Below are positions 49,948-58,983 of a stretch of 61,586 bases of DNA, one piece after another. The translations under genes were made by a program, and so were the position numbers. A model generated the notes under the pieces. That model ran no database searches and was not told the DNA's origin. It saw only the letters and a program-made list of their open reading frames with translations. Within the stretch, counting starts at the first letter, position 1, and each line of letters starts with the position of its first letter. Origin of the DNA: Chitinophagaceae bacterium (lineage in GTDB: Bacteria > Bacteroidota > Bacteroidia > Chitinophagales > Chitinophagaceae); assembly GCA_947456825.1 (NCBI GenBank), contig CANGTM010000003.1, forward strand, positions 1 through 61,586, given 5' to 3'.

Positions 49948-50335
49948 ATTTTTTGCTGTTGTCGGGGCCTTTATCATGGCTTTGGGGGTATTGGCAGGTG
50001 CTTTTGGGGCTCATGGGTTACAAAAGCTGACCGCAGATCCCTCTGTTATCGAAACCTACAAGACAGCGGTGCAATACATGCTTTGGCATGGATTGGCCTT
50101 GTTGGTGCTCTGGTCTGCCCAAGAGCGGTTTACCCATAAGCAGTATAAGTGGATCGCTACTTGTTTTATGGATGGCGTCGTTCTTTTTTCAGGCTCCCTT
50201 TTTGTGATAACGGCCGGTAAAGTTTTTTCATTCTCTGTTCCCTGGTTGGTTTTCTTGACACCCATTGGAGGATTGCATTTTGTGGTAGGGTGGGTATTGC
50301 TGGGGTGGAGTCTCATCGGCAAACAGAGAAACTGA
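49940..50335 (+). CDS. DUF423 membrane protein (YgdD-like)
   Basis: The 131-residue protein has four predicted membrane helices and the family start FFAVVGAFIMALGVLAGAFG, then AHGLQK near 24 and AVQYMLWHGLALLVL near 43. GSLFVITAGK and LTPIGGLHFVVGWVLLGWS follow. The function of this small inner-membrane family is not known. It overlaps aroK by 8 bp (ATGTATAA). Confidence 0.88.
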   Translation: MYKFFAVVGAFIMALGVLAGAFGAHGLQKLTADPSVIETYKTAVQYMLWHGLALLVLWSAQERFTHKQYKWIATCFMDGVVLFSGSLFVITAGKVFSFSVPWLVFLTPIGGLHFVVGWVLLGWSLIGKQRN

Positions 50336-50336
50336 T

Positions 50337-50344
50337 TATATTTG
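50337..50344 (+). promoter_or_regulatory. -7 promoter box for ftsK
   Basis: TATATTTG is exact, begins 2 bp after the DUF423 stop and ends 5 nt before the ftsK ATG. No clear -33 TTTG is seen, so the call is moderate. Confidence 0.55.
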
Positions 50345-50349
50345 TAAGG

Positions 50350-53016
50350 ATGGCCAATAAGCTTCGTAAAACCGCTGCCAAAACCGAATCTGCCGCCAAG
50401 CCTTCTACCAAAGAGCTTAGAGATTTTACCACTGAGAAAGACGCCCCGATGGACTGGGTCGCGCTCGCTCGCGATGAGCGAACCCTAAAAATAGTTGGAG
50501 TCGTTTTTTTGGTCCTGTCTATTTTTTTGTTCATTTCCTTTGCTTCATACCTGTTTACGTGGAAGCAAGACCAAGCTATTGCCCAACAGGGATTTTCGGC
50601 TCTTCTTTACGAAGAGAAGCCTGCTCTAAATTGGCTCGGACGATTAGGTGCTGTGGTTTCTCATTTTTTCTTCTTTAAGGCTTTTGGTGTCGCCTCCTTT
50701 TTGGTCTGTACCTTCTTTTTTGTAGTAGGTGTTAATTTATTATTTCGGCAAAAAGTGTTTTCAATTTGGCGAAATCTAAAATATGTTACTATCGGTACTA
50801 CCGTTTTATCCGTATCGATGTCCTACCTTTTTTCAACAAGCGCTTTTGCCTTTGGGGGTGGAGTAGGAAATTTGTTGTCGCGCGAGCTAGAGGGCGCATT
50901 GGGCGTTATCGGAGCCGGCGCCGCATTACTTTTGATCGTAACGGCCTATGTTATCTGGCAGTTCAATCCCCGTTTTACCATTCCAAAAAGAAATGCTGTC
51001 GCAGAAGAGCCCGCCTCACCGGAAGGTGATGTTGATGCCGATGCGTCAGCCACCGGCGAAGAAGTAGCCGTGGCGGCCATGATGACGCTGCAACAAGAGG
51101 AAAATACAAAAGAAGAGGTCAAGCCTCTCTCGTCCTCCTTTGTACCGCCAGTTACGGGGCAAACCATCAATGATCTTTATGCAGCGGGGGCCGGTGCTAT
51201 TCAGTATCACGAGGATATTCCCGCAGCGGAACAAGCAACTCAGCCATCTGCCGATGAGGCGGTTTCTTTGCAAGAGGAGTCATTATCCGCAGACCAGATC
51301 GAGCCCGCCTCCATCATCAGCGGTCCTATAGATCTACCCTTGGAGACTACTACTGCTCCTCAGGGCGACGATACAGAGGAGATCGAGCAGGAAGAGGAGG
51401 TGCCTCCTGTGGATACTTCCGTACCCGAGGGAGATCTGGAGCTTGAGATAAAGACCACGCCACTGGATGCCGCGATCGAAGAAGAGGTCGTTGTGGAAAA
51501 CCTGCCCCCCTATGAACCTACGCTCGACCTGAGTAATTATAAATATCCTTCACTTAATTTGCTGGAACAACACGGGTCCGATAAGATCGTACAAGATAAC
51601 AATGACCTGGAAAATCAAAAAAACCAGATCATCAATACGCTGCGTAATTACGCTATCGAGATCCAAAAGATCAGTGCCACTATTGGGCCAACGGTCACGT
51701 TATATGAGATCGTTCCGGCCCCTGGCGTTCGAATTTCTCGCATCAAAAATCTGGAGGACGATATTGCTCTTAGTCTGGCGGCACTCGGAATCAGGATCAT
51801 TGCCCCCATTCCCGGAAAAGGAACCATTGGTATAGAGGTGCCCAATATCAAAAAGACGGTGGTTAGTATGAGAAGCCTGCTGTCTTCGGAAAAGTTTCAG
51901 CACAATAATTATAGTTTGCCGATCGGGATAGGAAAGCGCATCGATAATGAAAATTATATCGTTGACCTTACCTCAATGCCTCACTTGCTGATGGCCGGTG
52001 CTACCGGGCAAGGAAAATCCGTCGGATTGAACGCCATACTGGTATCGCTGCTCTTTAAAAAACATCCCTCGCAGCTCAAATTCGTGCTTATCGATCCCAA
52101 GAAAGTGGAGTTGAGCATTTACCGTCACATTGAAAAACATTTTTTGGCTAAGCTGCCCGGAGAAGAGGATGCCATCATCACCGATACCAAGAAGGTGATC
52201 CATACGCTCAATGCGCTTTGTATTGAAATGGATAACCGATATGACCTGTTAAAAGAGGCTGGTGCTCGAAATATCAAGGAGTACAACGAAAAGTTCATCA
52301 AGCGAAAACTCAATCCGCAAAAAGGACACCAGTTTTTACCCTTTATCGTACTCGTTATCGATGAGTTTGCCGATCTGATCATGACGGCCGGCAAGGAAGT
52401 GGAGACACCGATTACCCGGTTGGCCCAGCTGGCTCGAGCCATAGGCATCCATCTTATCATCGCTACGCAACGTCCCTCTGTGAATATCATCACCGGCACT
52501 ATCAAGGCCAATTTTCCGGCGCGTATCGCCTTTAAGGTGTCTTCTAAGATTGATTCCCGCACCATTCTAGATACCGGAGGAGCCGAGCAACTGATCGGAA
52601 AGGGAGATATGCTGATCTCTCACCATGGCGAACTGACCCGCTTGCAGTGTGCTTTCGTAGATACGCCAGAGGTCGAACAGGTCGTTGATTTTATCAGTGA
52701 GCAGCAGGGCTATCCACAGGCTTTCTTATTGCCGGAGTATGTTGACGAAAAAGAAATGGAGGGGCGTGAGCTTGATATGGGCGATCGCGATTCACTTTTT
52801 GAAGATGCGGCCCGTTTGATCGTGCAGCACCAGAGCGGTTCTACTTCTTTGTTGCAGCGCCGAATGAAACTGGGCTATAACCGGGCCGGTCGTTTGATGG
52901 ATCAATTAGAAATTGCCGGTATTGTAGGCCCTGCCCAGGGCAGTAAGCCTCGTGATGTGCTGGTCAAGACCGAGGCCGACCTGCAGCGGCATCTGGATCC
53001 CTCGGGTCTAGGGTAA
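50350..53016 (+). CDS. ftsK: DNA translocase FtsK/SpoIIIE
   Basis: FtsK pumps DNA at the septum during chromosome separation. The 888-residue protein begins MANKLRKTAAKTE, with the ATG at 50350 chosen since the frame further up lies in DUF423. Four membrane helices lie in the first ~200 residues (for example VVFLVLSIFLFISFASYLF). An acidic, low-complexity linker (residues ~220-400, rich in Glu/Thr/Pro) follows. The motor has LLMAGATGQGKSVGLNAILV near 545, VLVIDEFADLIMTAGKEVE near 671, and ATQRPSVNIITGTIKANFPA near 710. The C-terminal winged-helix gamma domain (LLQRRMKLGYNRAGRLMDQL) reads polar DNA sites such as KOPS. Confidence 0.95.
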   Translation: MANKLRKTAAKTESAAKPSTKELRDFTTEKDAPMDWVALARDERTLKIVGVVFLVLSIFLFISFASYLFTWKQDQAIAQQGFSALLYEEKPALNWLGRLGAVVSHFFFFKAFGVASFLVCTFFFVVGVNLLFRQKVFSIWRNLKYVTIGTTVLSVSMSYLFSTSAFAFGGGVGNLLSRELEGALGVIGAGAALLLIVTAYVIWQFNPRFTIPKRNAVAEEPASPEGDVDADASATGEEVAVAAMMTLQQEENTKEEVKPLSSSFVPPVTGQTINDLYAAGAGAIQYHEDIPAAEQATQPSADEAVSLQEESLSADQIEPASIISGPIDLPLETTTAPQGDDTEEIEQEEEVPPVDTSVPEGDLELEIKTTPLDAAIEEEVVVENLPPYEPTLDLSNYKYPSLNLLEQHGSDKIVQDNNDLENQKNQIINTLRNYAIEIQKISATIGPTVTLYEIVPAPGVRISRIKNLEDDIALSLAALGIRIIAPIPGKGTIGIEVPNIKKTVVSMRSLLSSEKFQHNNYSLPIGIGKRIDNENYIVDLTSMPHLLMAGATGQGKSVGLNAILVSLLFKKHPSQLKFVLIDPKKVELSIYRHIEKHFLAKLPGEEDAIITDTKKVIHTLNALCIEMDNRYDLLKEAGARNIKEYNEKFIKRKLNPQKGHQFLPFIVLVIDEFADLIMTAGKEVETPITRLAQLARAIGIHLIIATQRPSVNIITGTIKANFPARIAFKVSSKIDSRTILDTGGAEQLIGKGDMLISHHGELTRLQCAFVDTPEVEQVVDFISEQQGYPQAFLLPEYVDEKEMEGRELDMGDRDSLFEDAARLIVQHQSGSTSLLQRRMKLGYNRAGRLMDQLEIAGIVGPAQGSKPRDVLVKTEADLQRHLDPSGLG

Positions 53017-53128: not shown

Positions 53129-53794
53129 ATGAAAAAAGCTCTTGTTGCTTCTCTTTTGGTCCTTTTGCAAAGCAGCTTGCTCTTTGCCCAGACCAAGACC
53201 GCCTCTCGCAACGATCCGGAGGCTAAAAAGATCTTGGATGCTGTGAGTACCAAGTTCAAATCCTTTGCTACGGTACAAGCAGCCTTTACCTATAAGGTGG
53301 AGAATGCGGCCGGTAAGGTCTTGTCGTCGAAGACCGGAACCATTACCATGAAGGGTACCAAGTATCGTCTAAATTTTAGCGGGCAAGAGATTATTTGTAA
53401 TGGAACCACGGTTTGGAATGTGGACAAAGCCGCCAACGAGGTTACGATCAATACGCTCGATGCGTCGAGCGGAATGATCACACCGCAAAAGTTGTTCTCT
53501 AATTTTTACGACAAGGATTTTCTCTACGTATTAAACGGCGATAAAAAAGTAGGGGCTAAAGTAGTGCAAGAGATTCAGCTGACCCCGGTAGACAAGTCAA
53601 AGAATTTCCACACGGTCTTTTTACAGGTTGACAAAGTGGCCAAGACGATGTACAGTACCAGAGTGCTTGAAAATGCGGGTAACCGCTATTCGTATACGGT
53701 AAACAGTATGAAGACCAACTTGCCGGCCGCCGATGCACTGTTCGCTTTCGACAAAGCCAAATATCCCGGCATCAACATAGAGGATCTTAGATAA
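53129..53794 (+). CDS. lolA: LolA-like outer-membrane lipoprotein carrier protein
   Basis: The 221-residue periplasmic protein has a signal peptide (MKKALVASLLVLLQSSLLFA). The LolA-like fold follows: DAVSTKFKSFATVQAAFTYK near residue 37, KTGTITMKGTKYRLNFSGQE near 68, CNGTTVWNVDKAANEV near 90, and SGMITPQKLFSNFYDKDFL near 113. LolA carries lipoproteins across the periplasm. It follows ftsK by 112 bp, and this ftsK-lolA neighbourhood is also seen in other phyla. The 3' end overlaps convergent kdsA by 8 bp. Confidence 0.88.
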   Translation: MKKALVASLLVLLQSSLLFAQTKTASRNDPEAKKILDAVSTKFKSFATVQAAFTYKVENAAGKVLSSKTGTITMKGTKYRLNFSGQEIICNGTTVWNVDKAANEVTINTLDASSGMITPQKLFSNFYDKDFLYVLNGDKKVGAKVVQEIQLTPVDKSKNFHTVFLQVDKVAKTMYSTRVLENAGNRYSYTVNSMKTNLPAADALFAFDKAKYPGINIEDLR

Positions 53795-54608
53795 CCGCTT
53801 CGCGGATCCGTACCAACTTTTCCAGAAGGGCTTCCATTTTATCGAGTGCCAGCATATTGGCTCCATCGCTTTTAGCAGTGGCGGGCGAAGGGTGTGTCTC
53901 TATAAATAGGCCGGATGCTCCCGCACCAATGGCGGCACTAGCGAGGGTTTCGATCAATGCAGGAAGCCCGCCTGTAACACCGACCGTCTGGTTCGGTTGT
54001 TGAAGTGAATGGGTGACATCCATCACAACCGGATATCCTAACTCTCTCATCCAATACATATTCCTAAAGTCAACTACCAGATCTTGGTAACCAAAGGTGG
54101 TGCCTCTTTCGGTAAGGAGTATTTTCTCGTTTCCGGTATTTTTTACTTTTTCGGCGGCGAATTTCATGGCCGGGCCGCTCACAAATTGCCCTTTTTTTAT
54201 ATTGATGAACTTTCCGGTCCGGCCGGCAGCCTCCAACAGATCGGTCTGTCTGCACAGGAAGGCAGGAATTTGCAGTACGTCTGTGTATGGGGCCGCCATG
54301 GCAGCCTCTTCGGCAGTATGAATATCGGTAACGACCGGAAGTTGTAGTTGGGTACGCACTTGCTGTAATATCTCGAGAGCGGCTTTATCGCCAATGCCCG
54401 TAAAGGAATTGGCACTAGATCGATTGGCCTTTCTGTAAGAGGCCTTAAACACAAGCGGGATCTGTAATCGGTTGCAGATGTCTTTAAGGGTAGCGGCCGT
54501 TTCAAGGACCAGGCTTGCCGATTCTACCACACACGGACCCGCCAATAGGAAAAAGGAACGCTCATTATAGGATTGTCCGGTAAACAGGGGTTTCAGAAAC
54601 GGTGTCAT
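53787..54608 (-). CDS. kdsA: 3-deoxy-D-manno-octulosonate 8-phosphate synthase
   Basis: KdsA condenses PEP with arabinose-5-phosphate for Kdo, which links lipid A to the LPS core. The 273-residue protein has FFLLAGPCVVES near 19, KASYRKANRSS near 55, TDIHTAEEA near 95, INIKKGQFVSGPAMKFAAEK near 135, MDVTHSLQQP near 196 and LFIETHPSPATAKSDGANM near 233. The Cys in AGPC, plus the later His, Glu and Asp, mark the metal-dependent class II form, since class I has Asn there. A perfect -7 box ends 4 nt before the ATG. Confidence 0.95.
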   Translation of the reverse strand: MTPFLKPLFTGQSYNERSFFLLAGPCVVESASLVLETAATLKDICNRLQIPLVFKASYRKANRSSANSFTGIGDKAALEILQQVRTQLQLPVVTDIHTAEEAAMAAPYTDVLQIPAFLCRQTDLLEAAGRTGKFINIKKGQFVSGPAMKFAAEKVKNTGNEKILLTERGTTFGYQDLVVDFRNMYWMRELGYPVVMDVTHSLQQPNQTVGVTGGLPALIETLASAAIGAGASGLFIETHPSPATAKSDGANMLALDKMEALLEKLVRIREAVI

Positions 54609-54649: not shown

Positions 54650-55591
54650 ATGCACAAAGAGAAGATTCTGGTGATCGGCGCCTCGGGCCAGATTGGTGTT
54701 GAACTAACGCTGGCGCTCCGAAAAATGCACGGTGCTGCCCAAGTGGTAGCGGCCGATCTGCGTGAGCAAAATCCGCTGCTGGCGGGTACAGGCCCTTATG
54801 TGTCGTTAGATGTCATGAACAAAGAAATGCTGCATGTACAGATCATTCGCCAGAACATCACCCAGGTATATCTGTTGGCCGCTATTCTTTCGGCAACGGG
54901 CGAAAAGAATCCATCGCTGGCCTGGAATCTCAATATGCAGGGTTTGCTCAATGTGCTAGATATTGCTCGCGAAGAAAAGCTCAGTAAAGTATTTTGGCCT
55001 TCTTCGATCGCCGTGTTTGGTCCCAGCTCCCCCCGTGTTAATTGCCCACAGCAAACGATCATCGAGCCCACTACCATTTATGGCATCAGTAAGTATGCCG
55101 GAGAGTTTTGGTGTAATTATTACTGGCAACGCTATGGGGTCGATGTCAGAAGTCTTCGCTATCCCGGACTTATCTCTTACAAATCGGCGCCAGGCGGGGG
55201 TACCACCGACTATGCCGTAGAGATATACCATGAGGCTTTGTCCCAGCGTTCGTATACTTGTTTCTTGAAGCAGGATACGTACTTGCCTATGATGTATATG
55301 CCTGATGCCATTCGGGCAACGATAGAGCTGATGGAAGCGCCCGCAGATCGGATCTCTGTTCGTACCTCTTATAATTTGTCGGCTATGAGTTTTTCTCCGG
55401 CTGAGATCGCTGTATCCATTCAAAAGCAAATTCCTGATTTTCGAATGGCTTATCAGCCTGATTACCGACAGTCCATCGCAGACAGCTGGCCGCAGAGTAT
55501 CGACGATAGTGTGGCAAGACGAGATTGGGGTTGGAAACATGAGTACGATCTGGATGCCATGACCGTTGACATGCTTCAAAACCTTGGATGA
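54650..55591 (+). CDS. L-threonine 3-dehydrogenase, NAD-dependent, epimerase-like type
   Basis: The 313-residue protein is an extended SDR. NAD binding is at ILVIGASGQIGVELTLAL (residues 6-23), the catalytic Tyr and Lys are in YGISKYAGEFW near 144, and the SSIAVFG strand holds the Ser near 116. The segment LRYPGLISYKSAPGGGTTDY near 174, followed by AVEIYHEAL, is the signature by which this group is told from UDP-galactose epimerases. Threonine is oxidised to 2-amino-3-ketobutyrate. The partner Kbl ligase is not in the window. Confidence 0.9.
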   Translation: MHKEKILVIGASGQIGVELTLALRKMHGAAQVVAADLREQNPLLAGTGPYVSLDVMNKEMLHVQIIRQNITQVYLLAAILSATGEKNPSLAWNLNMQGLLNVLDIAREEKLSKVFWPSSIAVFGPSSPRVNCPQQTIIEPTTIYGISKYAGEFWCNYYWQRYGVDVRSLRYPGLISYKSAPGGGTTDYAVEIYHEALSQRSYTCFLKQDTYLPMMYMPDAIRATIELMEAPADRISVRTSYNLSAMSFSPAEIAVSIQKQIPDFRMAYQPDYRQSIADSWPQSIDDSVARRDWGWKHEYDLDAMTVDMLQNLG

Positions 55592-55629: not shown

Positions 55630-56118
55630 TTAGGGGTTCTTTTCTGTTGATAGCAGCATACGGACGATCTCCTCTAAATAGTGCCGGTCCTCATCATCAA
55701 AATCGGCATGTTTTGTGCTATCGACATCCAAAACGCCCATGACCTGCCCATTTTTACAAAGCGGAACAACGATCTCGGAGTTTGACAAACTGCTGCAGGC
55801 AATATGGCCGGGAAAGCTGTGCACATCCTCTACTACAATGGTTTTTTCTTGTTGCCAGCATGTACCACAAACGCCTCTTCCTTTTTTTATACGGGTGCAG
55901 GCTACCGGACCCTGAAACGGGCCTAACACCAATTCGTCTTGCTTTACTACGTAAAAGCCCACCCAAAGCCAGCCAAATTGTTCTTTGAGCGCCGCACAGG
56001 TGTTGGCCATGTTAGCAACAAAATCGGTCTCGCCCGATAGCAGTCCTTGCAATTGGGGAAGTAGATTTTGATATTGCTCCGCTTTGGTACCTTTACTGAT
56101 AGTTAAATCTTCTGCCAT
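55630..56118 (-). CDS. GAF domain protein, free methionine-(R)-sulfoxide reductase type
   Basis: The 162-residue GAF protein resembles fRMsr enzymes: WLWVGFYVVKQDELVLGPFQ near residue 66, CTRIKKGRGVCGTCWQQEKT near 90 with the catalytic Cys pair, and VVPLCKNGQVMGVLDVDS near 133. Both cysteines of the CGTCW motif and a further one at PVACTRI are present, as needed for the disulfide mechanism. The ATG at 56118 is used. A longer frame would begin inside the divergent gene. Its -7 box ends 5 nt upstream. Confidence 0.88.
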   Translation of the reverse strand: MAEDLTISKGTKAEQYQNLLPQLQGLLSGETDFVANMANTCAALKEQFGWLWVGFYVVKQDELVLGPFQGPVACTRIKKGRGVCGTCWQQEKTIVVEDVHSFPGHIACSSLSNSEIVVPLCKNGQVMGVLDVDSTKHADFDDEDRHYLEEIVRMLLSTEKNP

Positions 56119-56123
56119 AGTTG

Positions 56124-56131
56124 CAAAGATA
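56124..56131 (-). promoter_or_regulatory. -7 promoter box for the GAF gene
   Basis: Minus-strand TATCTTTG, exact, with 5 nt to the ATG at 56118, so very little leader is expected. Confidence 0.65.
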
Positions 56132-56163
56132 GAATCCCCCGGGCTTAGTAACTTTATTTCAAT

Positions 56164-58983
56164 ATGCCTGCTATGCGTTTTCTTTTCGTATTGATCGGAT
56201 TTTTTTTGTTGCAGACCGCTTCTTACGGGCAACCGTATGGAGGTAATCCGTCCCGACAGAAGTGGAGGCAACTTGTAACGGATAGTGCCCGCATTATTTA
56301 TCCTCCGGGTTTAGATAGCCAGGCACAGCGCTCTATGGCGTTAATACGCCGACTGGCTGCATACGATTCGTTTCGTCTGGGCAGGCAACTAAAGCCCATT
56401 GACATCATCTTGCAACATAGCCCCGTTATCTCCAACGCTTATGTTCAACTGGGGCCTTTTCGCAGTGAATGGATGTTGATGCCCAACCTCAATAATTTTA
56501 GTACGGGAACACTGGGGTGGAGCGATTTGCTGGCTCTGCATGAATATCGGCATGTGGAACAAATCAACAACATGAATACGGGGCTAAGTAAAGCCGCCCG
56601 TATTTTACTAGGAGAGCAGGGATATGATCTTGCCATCAATACGGCCGTTCCGAATTGGTTCTTTGAGGGAGATGCCACTTGGCAAGAATCGGCATTAAGT
56701 CTACAGGGCAGGGGACGATTACCTCAATTTCTGAATGCATTTCCGGCGCTTTGGCAAGGAGGTAAAAATTATTCATGGTTAAAGCTTCGCAACGGATCTT
56801 TTAAAGATGTAGTTCCTGATCATTATGAGTTGGGCTATCTCTTGGTCAATTACGGCGTGGCCATGTATGGCGAAAAATTTTGGCCTACGGTCATAAAAAG
56901 GGCTGCTTCGTTCTCATCTGTACTCTATCCTTTTCAACAAGCAGTCTCCAAGACAGCAGGGTTATCGTATGCGCAATTCAGAAAAAATGCCTTTGCCTGG
57001 TATAAAGAAAAGCAACCTGTGGCTGAGCCATCCGTACCTGTCTGGTTGCTCAAAACGGAAACACGCTACGCCACCGACCGCCAATATCCTTTTTGGGTAG
57101 GCGGTGACACCTTGCTTCTTCAGAAGAGTAGTCGCATTCACCGACCGGGCTTTTATCTGGTAACCAAGAACAAGGAACATCTGTTGCGTACACTTGATAT
57201 TTCGCTGGACCAGCCTTTTAGTTATCGAAATGGAAAGCTCGTTTATGCCGCCTACGAAAAAGATCCTCGTTGGCATTGGGTAAGCTACAGCTCGCTACGC
57301 ATCGTTGATGTGCATACCGGAAAGCAGACGAAGCTGACTCATCATACCCGTTATTTTACCCCCGATATTGCGCCTGGGCTCGATAGGGTCATAGCGGTAC
57401 AGGTAAATGAGTCAGGTAAGGCTTCGCTGGAACTTCTCTCTGCCAGCGATGGAAAACAAATCGCCTCTTATGCATCACCCGACGGTCATTTGTATACGGA
57501 CCCAAAATTCTTGTCCGATACAGCCGTAGTGGCGGCTATTCGTGATCAGCGCGGTGCCATGGCCTTAGTGCGACTTTCACTAGGTACCGGGCATCAAGAA
57601 TTATTGACCCCCTTTTTGCCGTATTCGCTGGGCTTTTTACAACCGTATGAGGGATCGGTCTTTTTTACGGCCGGCTTTAGTGGTAACGACCATATTTATT
57701 GTCTTCGTTTGCAGGACAGAACGGTGTGGCAGGTTACCAATGGTGGACTTGGAAAGTACAATGTGCATGCTGGCTTGGATAAGCTGTATTGGTCCGAGCC
57801 CACGGCGGAAGGGCTTCAGGTGAGGGTGGCCGCTGCCGAGCCTGACCGGTGGCAGTGGGTTTCTCTCGATTCGATATACAGCGCAACTATTTATTCAGTA
57901 GCCGGTGCACAGGCAGGAGATCTTTCACTGTTGTCACAATTTGCCACCACTCGTAGTTCGAATGATACGATTTCCTCCTCTCGCTATAAAAAATCTACCG
58001 GTTTATTTAATTTTCATAGCTGGCGTCCTGATTACCAAGATCCACTGTTTCGATTCGCTCTTTATGGAGAAAATGTGCTAAGCACCTTGCAAACTGAGGT
58101 TGCTTATGAGTACAATGAAAATGAGCGGAGTCATTCATTTGGCGCTTCGGGTACATATGCTGGATGGTTTCCACAGCTTACGCTGGGTACTAACTATACC
58201 ATTGAGCGTTCGGCCATGGTAAGAGGAGTGCGAAGAGCTTGGTCGCAACTCGATACCCGACTGGGAGTGAGCATTCCGTTGCAGGATATCAAAGGAAGGG
58301 TGTACCGAAATCTGTCAGTAGGAAGTTACTACGTGCTCCGTAACGACATGTACAAGGGTCCTCACCGTGATAGCTTGGGTTCTGTCACCTTTGGCTACCT
58401 GATGCATAGTGCTCAATTTTCAGTAGGTGTGCAGCAGGCCTTACAGCATATTTTTCCACGTTTTGGAGCTAGCGTGAGCTTGCTTGGGCAGCATAGTGTC
58501 TCGTCTTTCGATGGGCGTCAGTTCAATGCAGCGGCCAACGTTTATCTGCCGGGTCTTTCGCACCGTCACCATCTCGTGTTGCAGGGGGCCTGGCAAGAAC
58601 GAGACACCCTTGGGCAGTTAAGTTTTGGAAATCGGTTAGCGTACAGCCGGGGATATGTGGGTCGCAATTTCAGCAGGATGTTGAAGACAGGGGTTAACTA
58701 TCATTTTCCTATTTGGTTACCCGACTTCGGGATTGCCAGCATTGCCTATATAAACCGGGTCAGGGCCAACTTATTTTACGATCATACCCTGGTTTACTCC
58801 CGCAATAAGCAGCAGACAGCCATGCAACGCAGCACGGGTGCCGAAGTTTTCTTTGATATGAAGTGGTGGAACCAGCACCCCGTCAGTTTTGGATTTCGGG
58901 TCAACTATCTGATCGATCGTGATCAATTTGATGGTTATCGGGGGTGGTTTACCGAGTTCATCATGCCCGTTACGCTTTTTTGA
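56164..58983 (+). CDS. HExxH peptidase-like / beta-propeller / outer-membrane barrel protein
   Basis: The 939-residue protein has a signal peptide (RFLFVLIGFFLLQTASYG). About residues 30-270 look like a zinc peptidase domain: LLALHEYRHVEQINN holds HExxH at 126-130, and VPNWFFEGDATWQES supplies a likely third ligand Glu168. Residues ~290-620 read as short beta strands repeated like a TolB/WD-type propeller (FWVGGDTLLLQKSSR, LDRVIAVQVNESGK, GSVFFTAGFSGNDHI). From ~640 to the end, amphipathic strands with aromatic ends (ARLFYDH-type; final FTEFIMPVTLF) suggest an outer-membrane barrel of the surface-antigen kind. I know no name for this combination. ATGs at 56164 and 56173 are both possible starts; TAACTTTA (56149-56156) is one base off a -7 box. 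Confidence 0.7.
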   Translation: MPAMRFLFVLIGFFLLQTASYGQPYGGNPSRQKWRQLVTDSARIIYPPGLDSQAQRSMALIRRLAAYDSFRLGRQLKPIDIILQHSPVISNAYVQLGPFRSEWMLMPNLNNFSTGTLGWSDLLALHEYRHVEQINNMNTGLSKAARILLGEQGYDLAINTAVPNWFFEGDATWQESALSLQGRGRLPQFLNAFPALWQGGKNYSWLKLRNGSFKDVVPDHYELGYLLVNYGVAMYGEKFWPTVIKRAASFSSVLYPFQQAVSKTAGLSYAQFRKNAFAWYKEKQPVAEPSVPVWLLKTETRYATDRQYPFWVGGDTLLLQKSSRIHRPGFYLVTKNKEHLLRTLDISLDQPFSYRNGKLVYAAYEKDPRWHWVSYSSLRIVDVHTGKQTKLTHHTRYFTPDIAPGLDRVIAVQVNESGKASLELLSASDGKQIASYASPDGHLYTDPKFLSDTAVVAAIRDQRGAMALVRLSLGTGHQELLTPFLPYSLGFLQPYEGSVFFTAGFSGNDHIYCLRLQDRTVWQVTNGGLGKYNVHAGLDKLYWSEPTAEGLQVRVAAAEPDRWQWVSLDSIYSATIYSVAGAQAGDLSLLSQFATTRSSNDTISSSRYKKSTGLFNFHSWRPDYQDPLFRFALYGENVLSTLQTEVAYEYNENERSHSFGASGTYAGWFPQLTLGTNYTIERSAMVRGVRRAWSQLDTRLGVSIPLQDIKGRVYRNLSVGSYYVLRNDMYKGPHRDSLGSVTFGYLMHSAQFSVGVQQALQHIFPRFGASVSLLGQHSVSSFDGRQFNAAANVYLPGLSHRHHLVLQGAWQERDTLGQLSFGNRLAYSRGYVGRNFSRMLKTGVNYHFPIWLPDFGIASIAYINRVRANLFYDHTLVYSRNKQQTAMQRSTGAEVFFDMKWWNQHPVSFGFRVNYLIDRDQFDGYRGWFTEFIMPVTLF

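Follow-up and report, generated by a model that had tools for sequence, protein, structure and literature searches.

The window, by which we mean the whole stretch of DNA analysed (61,586 nucleotides of contig CANGTM010000003.1, from a Chitinophagaceae bacterium), carries an open reading frame (ORF), P0001, whose product is predicted to join a signal peptide, a gluzincin-type peptidase domain, a TolB-like propeller and an Omp85-type barrel without POTRA domains in one chain. We consider this anatomy highly likely. Judged by sequence comparison, P0001 represents a new, peptidase-bearing variant of the propeller-Omp85 proteins that is real and conserved, and from which we infer a function below. 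The gene and its features are as follows.

56164..58983, + strand: whole ORF, P0001, 939 amino acids in a single open frame.
56173..56229, + strand: signal peptide, residues 4-22, recognised by eye as a hydrophobic N-terminus ahead of the conserved Q23.
56233..57033, + strand: predicted gluzincin-like peptidase domain, residues ~24-290, from matches between its profile and those of subfamilies B and C.
56539..56553, + strand: HEYRH, residues 126-130, the presumed two zinc-binding His and general-base Glu127, in 93/93 aligned ORFs.
56656..56688, + strand: WFFEGDATWQE, residues 165-175, with Glu168 as presumed third zinc ligand, E168 in 93/93 aligned ORFs.
56824..56826, + strand: Tyr221, the presumed transition-state (oxyanion) tyrosine, Y in 93/93 and in a sub-threshold ColG alignment.
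57046..57963, + strand: TolB-type beta-propeller, residues ~295-600, from TolB chains in the PDB and TIGR02800 in 17/24 members.
58003..58980, + strand: outer-membrane barrel, probably of Omp85 type, residues ~614-939, from amphipathic alternation and a profile chain to Omp85.
58648..58656, + strand: RGY, residues 829-831, positioned like the Omp85 L6 RGF/Y motif, from conservation in alignment A2 and the Omp85 profile alignment.

Relatives of P0001 were matched in 33 of the 58 genomes searched, the window's genome included; among these were 30/34 further genomes of its genus. Across the phylum, a 24-sequence profile at E <= 1e-5 gave matches in 212/395 genomes, a count that does not claim the full architecture for all 212. 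At least 38 matches, spread over 38 genomes including that of the window, span 700 or more of the 931 profile positions; among the matches listed, the others are partial and lie mainly in the peptidase domain or the propeller, and the weakest of these may be plain TolB-like proteins. Thirty-four partial loci (L069-L102) were taken up, and all 34 have a profile-matching ORF with HExxH near the N-terminal end, mostly at residues 120-200 and in others up to 369. They supplied subfamily B (alignment A4, 18 aligned, with an HEF[TV]H-type motif and an EG-x-A motif farther on) and subfamily C (A5, 14 aligned), two of the 34 ORFs standing outside both alignments; P0001 belongs to subfamily A, represented by alignments A2 and A6. 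Profiles of the subfamilies matched each other over nearly their full length (A2-A4, E 9.7e-38; A2-A5, E 2.2e-62; A4-A5, E 6e-49; all pairwise, not database, values), so the order of peptidase, propeller and barrel is kept across the three.

Residue conservation was counted over 93 ORFs, all from different loci (95 rows minus P0002 and P0003, which repeat L035 and L037), with near-identical loci such as L013 and L015 counted separately. Repeats of the same locus were dropped (L001, which is P0001, and L005, L031, L032, L034, L038 and L039), and contig-end fragments (G002, G006, the second piece of G009, and G031) and the 10-base stretches L103 and L104 were left out. Eleven of at least 24 further relatives in A2 were thinned out for profile building, although they are counted among the 33 ORFs discussed below; five close subfamily A relatives (L047, L048, L050, L057, L064) were omitted from A6, and L059 from A9. 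Two ORFs with a long N-terminal extension, L097 and L098, were left out of A4 and A5, and both have HExxH and LAEGTA. These two run to 1345 and 1393 codons, with HExxH at residues 366-369 and a long extra stretch before the peptidase domain.

The presumed catalytic residues of the peptidase domain are its most constant feature. H126, E127, H130, E168 and Y221, or the residues that correspond to them, are kept in 93/93 aligned ORFs from three diverged subfamilies, P0001 included, which rules out a chance match to the HExxH motif. The first four are identical in 33/33 aligned ORFs (P0001 and 32 relatives), a set in which identities fall as low as 26% in the subset for which they were taken. The preliminary description had reported HEYRH at 126-130, WFFEGDATWQE at 165-175 and Glu168 in the gluzincin position, and the translated ORF bears this out; it had also proposed a homologue alignment for invariant H126, E127, H130 and E168 as the test that could refute a gluzincin-type site, and in that alignment all four are retained throughout. 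The spacing from HExxH to Glu168 in P0001 is 37 residues. A gluzincin-type site formed by HExxH and Glu168, putatively zinc-binding, is thus supported, and P0001 is very probably an enzyme by this prediction. Residue Y221 fell in register, together with HExxH and the EG motif, with residues of collagenase ColG in a sub-threshold match of the A9 profile (E 0.64); the ColG tyrosine aligned with it is one that we assume to stabilise the transition state.

Compared as peptidase domains alone, A2 matched subfamily B (A4) at 98.5% (E 1.5e-15) and subfamily C (A5) at 99.9% (E 3.2e-35) in hhalign, again with pairwise E values, and the peptidase-domain profile set against barrel profiles as a control gave 0.4% and 0.0%. 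Because P0001 itself has no family match, its assignment to a peptidase family is transitive and passes through subfamily B on sequence likeness. Peptidase_MA_2 (PF13485) was matched by 18/18 members of that subfamily at E up to 0.1 (best E 2.3e-10), and L084, the only member with a score shown, reached 24.5 against a cut-off of 32.4. A search of 19 genomes with PF13485 gave matches in 3, all under the cut-off, and none in the window's genome. Flagellinolysin (NF033876) was matched by 17/18 subfamily B members (best E 1.2e-11) and weakly elsewhere (1/14 subfamily C and 1/29 subfamily A members). Both families share with ours an HExxH with a distal Glu in an EG-x-A motif, of gluzincin type; they differ in that P0001 falls below detection and in their other partner domains. 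According to the part of the source covered here, the flagellinolysin domain is a proven protease sensitive to ethylenediaminetetraacetic acid (EDTA), and mutation of the HExxH Glu abolishes its activity (PMC5595980).

A propeller in the middle of the chain, as the preliminary description had it, was recovered from the family profile. Searched against the PDB, profile A2 returned TolB chains first (7mx5, E 2.5e-8), and profile A4 of subfamily B returned them more strongly (best E 1.2e-19). The TolB model TIGR02800 was matched by 17/24 A2 members with E allowed up to 1; under the stricter limit of 0.1 it was matched by 18/18 A4, 13/14 A5 and 21/29 A6 members. Neither of the two scores shown reached its cut-off of 343 bits (78 bits for L084 and 58.2 bits for L070), and P0001 had no match; identity with TolB itself was rejected, these scores lying far under the cut-off.

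The same description had expected an outer-membrane barrel at the C-terminus, in one chain with peptidase and propeller, and a barrel-like end is supported by the alternation of residues and by profile matches, taken subfamily by subfamily. Hydrophobicity in residues 611-935 alternates with z 4.3 against shuffles of positions, while the propeller and peptidase parts gave z -1.6 and -1.0 in the same test. At the single cut-off used, the region yields 17 segments, two of them only 1-2 residues long, compatible with approximately 16 strands. Within it, R829 is invariant and G830 nearly so in A2, and RGY aligns with the L6 stretch of the Omp85 profile, which we take to be the L6 RGF/Y motif. The Omp85 reference barrels for hhalign were taken from relatives. 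The subfamily B barrel matched Omp85 at 97.1% (E 5.8e-11), the A+C barrel profile matched the subfamily B barrel at 95.0% over 311 columns (E 3.9e-8), and the barrels of subfamilies A and C match each other along their own length (98.8%, E 4e-17). Without B, the A+C profile reached Omp85 at 55.7%, with a score of 40.4 vs. a maximum of 16.9 among 40 column-shuffled nulls, and none of four query profiles exceeded 0.6% against 40 column-shuffled Omp85 profiles (in the null for the combined A+B+C profile, one of the 40 values was possibly counted twice). The combined A+B+C barrel matched Omp85 at 95.9% (E 5.5e-9), with 0.9% for the control OMP_b-brl_2, and the four values for this profile came out the same when computed again. 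Among single subfamily B members, 1/18 matched Omp85 (PF01103), and 2, 1 and 1 of the 18 weakly matched BamA or TamL models. Since the assignment follows the chain from A+C to B to Omp85, the C-terminus of P0001 is probably an Omp85-type barrel, mainly by way of subfamily B.

The propeller and barrel part of this architecture has been described before. In the portion of the text covered, Heinz and Lithgow (2014) define ten Omp85/TpsB subfamilies, among them WD40-Omp85, with a TolB-like propeller ahead of the barrel that was called reminiscent of a BamA-BamB fusion, and a 'Metallo' subfamily carrying PF00149 (PMC4104836). The P0001 family resembles WD40-Omp85 in its TolB-like propeller before the barrel and its lack of POTRA domains, and differs in having a peptidase domain; the covered text mentions no HExxH peptidase in WD40-Omp85, the two groups are equated from their architecture, and P0001 itself has no match to the Omp85 Pfam model (PF01103). 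The claim that no described system has this order therefore stands in part: the propeller with Omp85 was described in 2014, the peptidase in front of it is not mentioned there, and in the part of the printed literature covered we found no description of the order peptidase, propeller, barrel. The peptidase part appears to extend this known architecture by a domain that had been overlooked.

Among the family matches listed for P0001 and its relatives there is no POTRA, patatin, M48 or PF00149, and HtpX was matched by one of 14 subfamily C members at E 0.065 only. Identity with BepA or another M48 peptidase, with PlpD and with the 'Metallo' Omp85 proteins was rejected on this basis. BepA is an M48 peptidase and, we assume, a separate protein with other domains, whereas PlpD has a patatin lipase in place of the gluzincin domain and propeller, and presumably POTRA domains. 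BepA works in a like manner, being a periplasmic zinc peptidase that acts on outer-membrane proteins during assembly and cleaves those stalled at the beta-barrel assembly machinery (BAM), according to the covered part of a review (PMC13067283). PlpD (type Vd) is alike in joining an enzyme to an Omp85 barrel and, in the part of the paper covered, delivers that enzyme to the surface (PMC4104836).

A further comparison comes from plasmids, where P0001, one protein of subfamily C and one more distant protein of subfamily A returned nothing as queries and a subfamily B protein returned two partial matches. The Salinibacter ruber plasmid pSR116 (L198:2878-4779) encodes a protein with HExxH and PD40, annotated 'basic secretory protein-like protein' (WP_118831798.1), that has HELVH, WLIEGMAEY and a PD40 propeller in the same order and shares 21.5% identity over 51% of the subfamily B query. 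It differs in being 633 amino acids long, ending shortly after the propeller and having no barrel, so peptidase and propeller can occur untethered. Its peptidase part matched BSP (PF04450) at E 2e-4, just under the cut-off, and had no match to PF13485.

We put at roughly 45% the probability of the whole statement that P0001 stands for a family of single-chain outer-membrane proteins, found in many Bacteroidota, with a periplasmic quality-control role like that of BepA. The peptidase domain would bind zinc and cleave proteins; the barrel would lie in the outer membrane and have the peptidase and propeller facing the periplasm, and the propeller may accept or present polypeptides in the manner of BamB or TolB. 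The peptidase would cleave outer-membrane proteins or stalled assembly intermediates, a job that we offer as a tentative suggestion, somewhat short of probable, and would act like a BepA joined in one chain to BamB-like and BamA-like parts of its own. The periplasmic place is the default because the N-terminal parts of Omp85 barrel proteins normally lie in the periplasm, and TolB and BamB propellers bind proteins; Omp85 topology, protein-binding propellers and the action of BepA taken together make it likeliest that the protein cleaves or sorts outer-membrane proteins on the inner side of the membrane. A stronger form, in which peptidase (the BepA role), propeller (BamB) and Omp85 barrel (BamA) would make up a self-contained machine that inspects, assembles or destroys outer-membrane proteins independently of BAM, is in our estimate unlikely. 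If the peptidase is active, then within these subfamilies at least, the propeller-Omp85 proteins likened to BamA-BamB fusions would be enzymes, which would give Bacteroidota a protease anchored in the membrane by fusion to an Omp85 barrel. A single gene and a single residue (E127) could then serve as a handle on outer-membrane quality control in Bacteroidota, a question reopened by recent Bacteroidota BAM structures.

Several results weigh against the BepA-like reading or the anatomy beneath it. P0001 alone has no Pfam or NCBIfam match at E up to 5, and no solved structure in the PDB matched the peptidase profiles above threshold (for A8 nothing with E of 5 or less, for A9 a best E of 0.64). 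AlphaFold2 models were too poor to read, with mean pLDDT (predicted local distance difference test) values of 33.5 for the full chain (4 sequences) and 40.7 for the peptidase domain (5 sequences), the inputs holding four or five homologues at 72-89% identity. The match of the combined barrel profile to Omp85 is not independent, since B is included, and it stands at 55.7% without B. Against three BamA barrels alone, A2, A6, A5 and A4 gave 0.2%, 0.5%, 0.4% and 19.7%, and subfamily B matched the C barrels at only 35.6 and 36.1%. No match to the family was seen in 4/34 other genomes of the genus, two of them listed as 100% complete, or in 183/395 phylum genomes, and it looks dispensable; this patchy presence argues for an accessory role, not an essential one. 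No recurrent neighbour pointing to a partner was seen among 37 genomic contexts (ORFs of at least 110 codons), and the covered parts of papers on Bacteroidota BAM (PMC12611786) and TamL (PMC12045153) and of the review (PMC13067283) mention no such protein.

Other explanations were weighed as well. The barrel may not be of the Omp85 kind and could be a plain anchor or an uptake channel, with the peptidase trimming incoming peptides: subfamily A and C barrels alone reach Omp85 at no more than the level of an unrelated barrel family (A6 39.4%, A2 0.3% and C 6.0% vs. 36.1% for the control OMP_b-brl_2). We hold this to be improbable, given the agreement of A with C over the barrel's own length, their joint match to B, the 55.7% to Omp85 that persists without B, the 97.1% of subfamily B and the RGY stretch in the right place. 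A surface-displayed peptidase, which the barrel exports or holds outside with the propeller, as PlpD does its patatin, and which cuts external proteins or peptides, would also account for the architecture, and we rate it as rather unlikely. Bacteroidota place many enzymes on the surface, but Omp85 barrels usually keep N-terminal domains periplasmic, no POTRA family was matched in these proteins, and the propeller directly precedes the barrel. What favours display is the Salinibacter protein, in which peptidase and propeller occur without a barrel, and the precedent of PlpD, an Omp85 protein by which an enzyme reaches the surface, in the covered part of that paper (PMC4104836). The chain could, finally, be an envelope scaffold whose peptidase domain binds zinc and has lost cleavage. 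TolB and BamB propellers are themselves scaffolds, but pseudo-enzymes normally lose some catalytic residues, and here all five presumed ones, E127 and Y221 included, persist in every aligned ORF, which makes a scaffold very improbable.

With regard to the gene itself, the start of P0001 is probably 56173 (M4) rather than 56164, because relatives L002 and L004, aligned with P0001, lack the first ATG and keep M4. Read from M4, the N-terminus looks by eye like an ordinary signal peptide ahead of Q23 that lacks a lipobox cysteine, which agrees with the signal peptide described earlier apart from this small correction of the start. P0001 matches only itself within its own genome. That genome is small, with 1.82 Mb on 113 contigs and a listed completeness of 100%, and others in the genus are as large as 4.6 Mb. 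Genome G022 has two family members (L037 and L193, 48% and 29% identical to P0001), so paralogues can coexist. A scan of viral contigs gave 27 pattern matches and no relative. The nearest titled relatives are metagenome-assembled genomes labelled Chitinophagaceae (L033, L034) and 'Sphingomonadales' (L031, L032); the latter records, VHBB01000002.1 and VHAT01000010.1, hold relatives 78% and 72% identical to P0001, and their titles look wrong.

The genes around P0001 in the window are as follows.

50290-53016: ftsK-like translocase gene.
53129-53794: lolA1.
53787-54608, - strand: KDO-8-P synthase gene.
54650-55591: epimerase-like gene.
55630-56271, - strand: GAF-domain gene.
From 58993, - strand: valS.

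In the 37 contexts compared, valS lies near the family gene in 21 (15/17 in the window's genus and 6/20 in others). The two genes are convergent in 15/17 same-genus contexts, ten of them without an intervening ORF of at least 110 codons, and this adjacency fits inheritance of place. Beyond the genus, the gene cluster ranking after valS occurs in 4/20 contexts, and two clusters adjoin the family gene in the same 3/20 contexts. Loci L197 and L182 share their neighbour order with the window.

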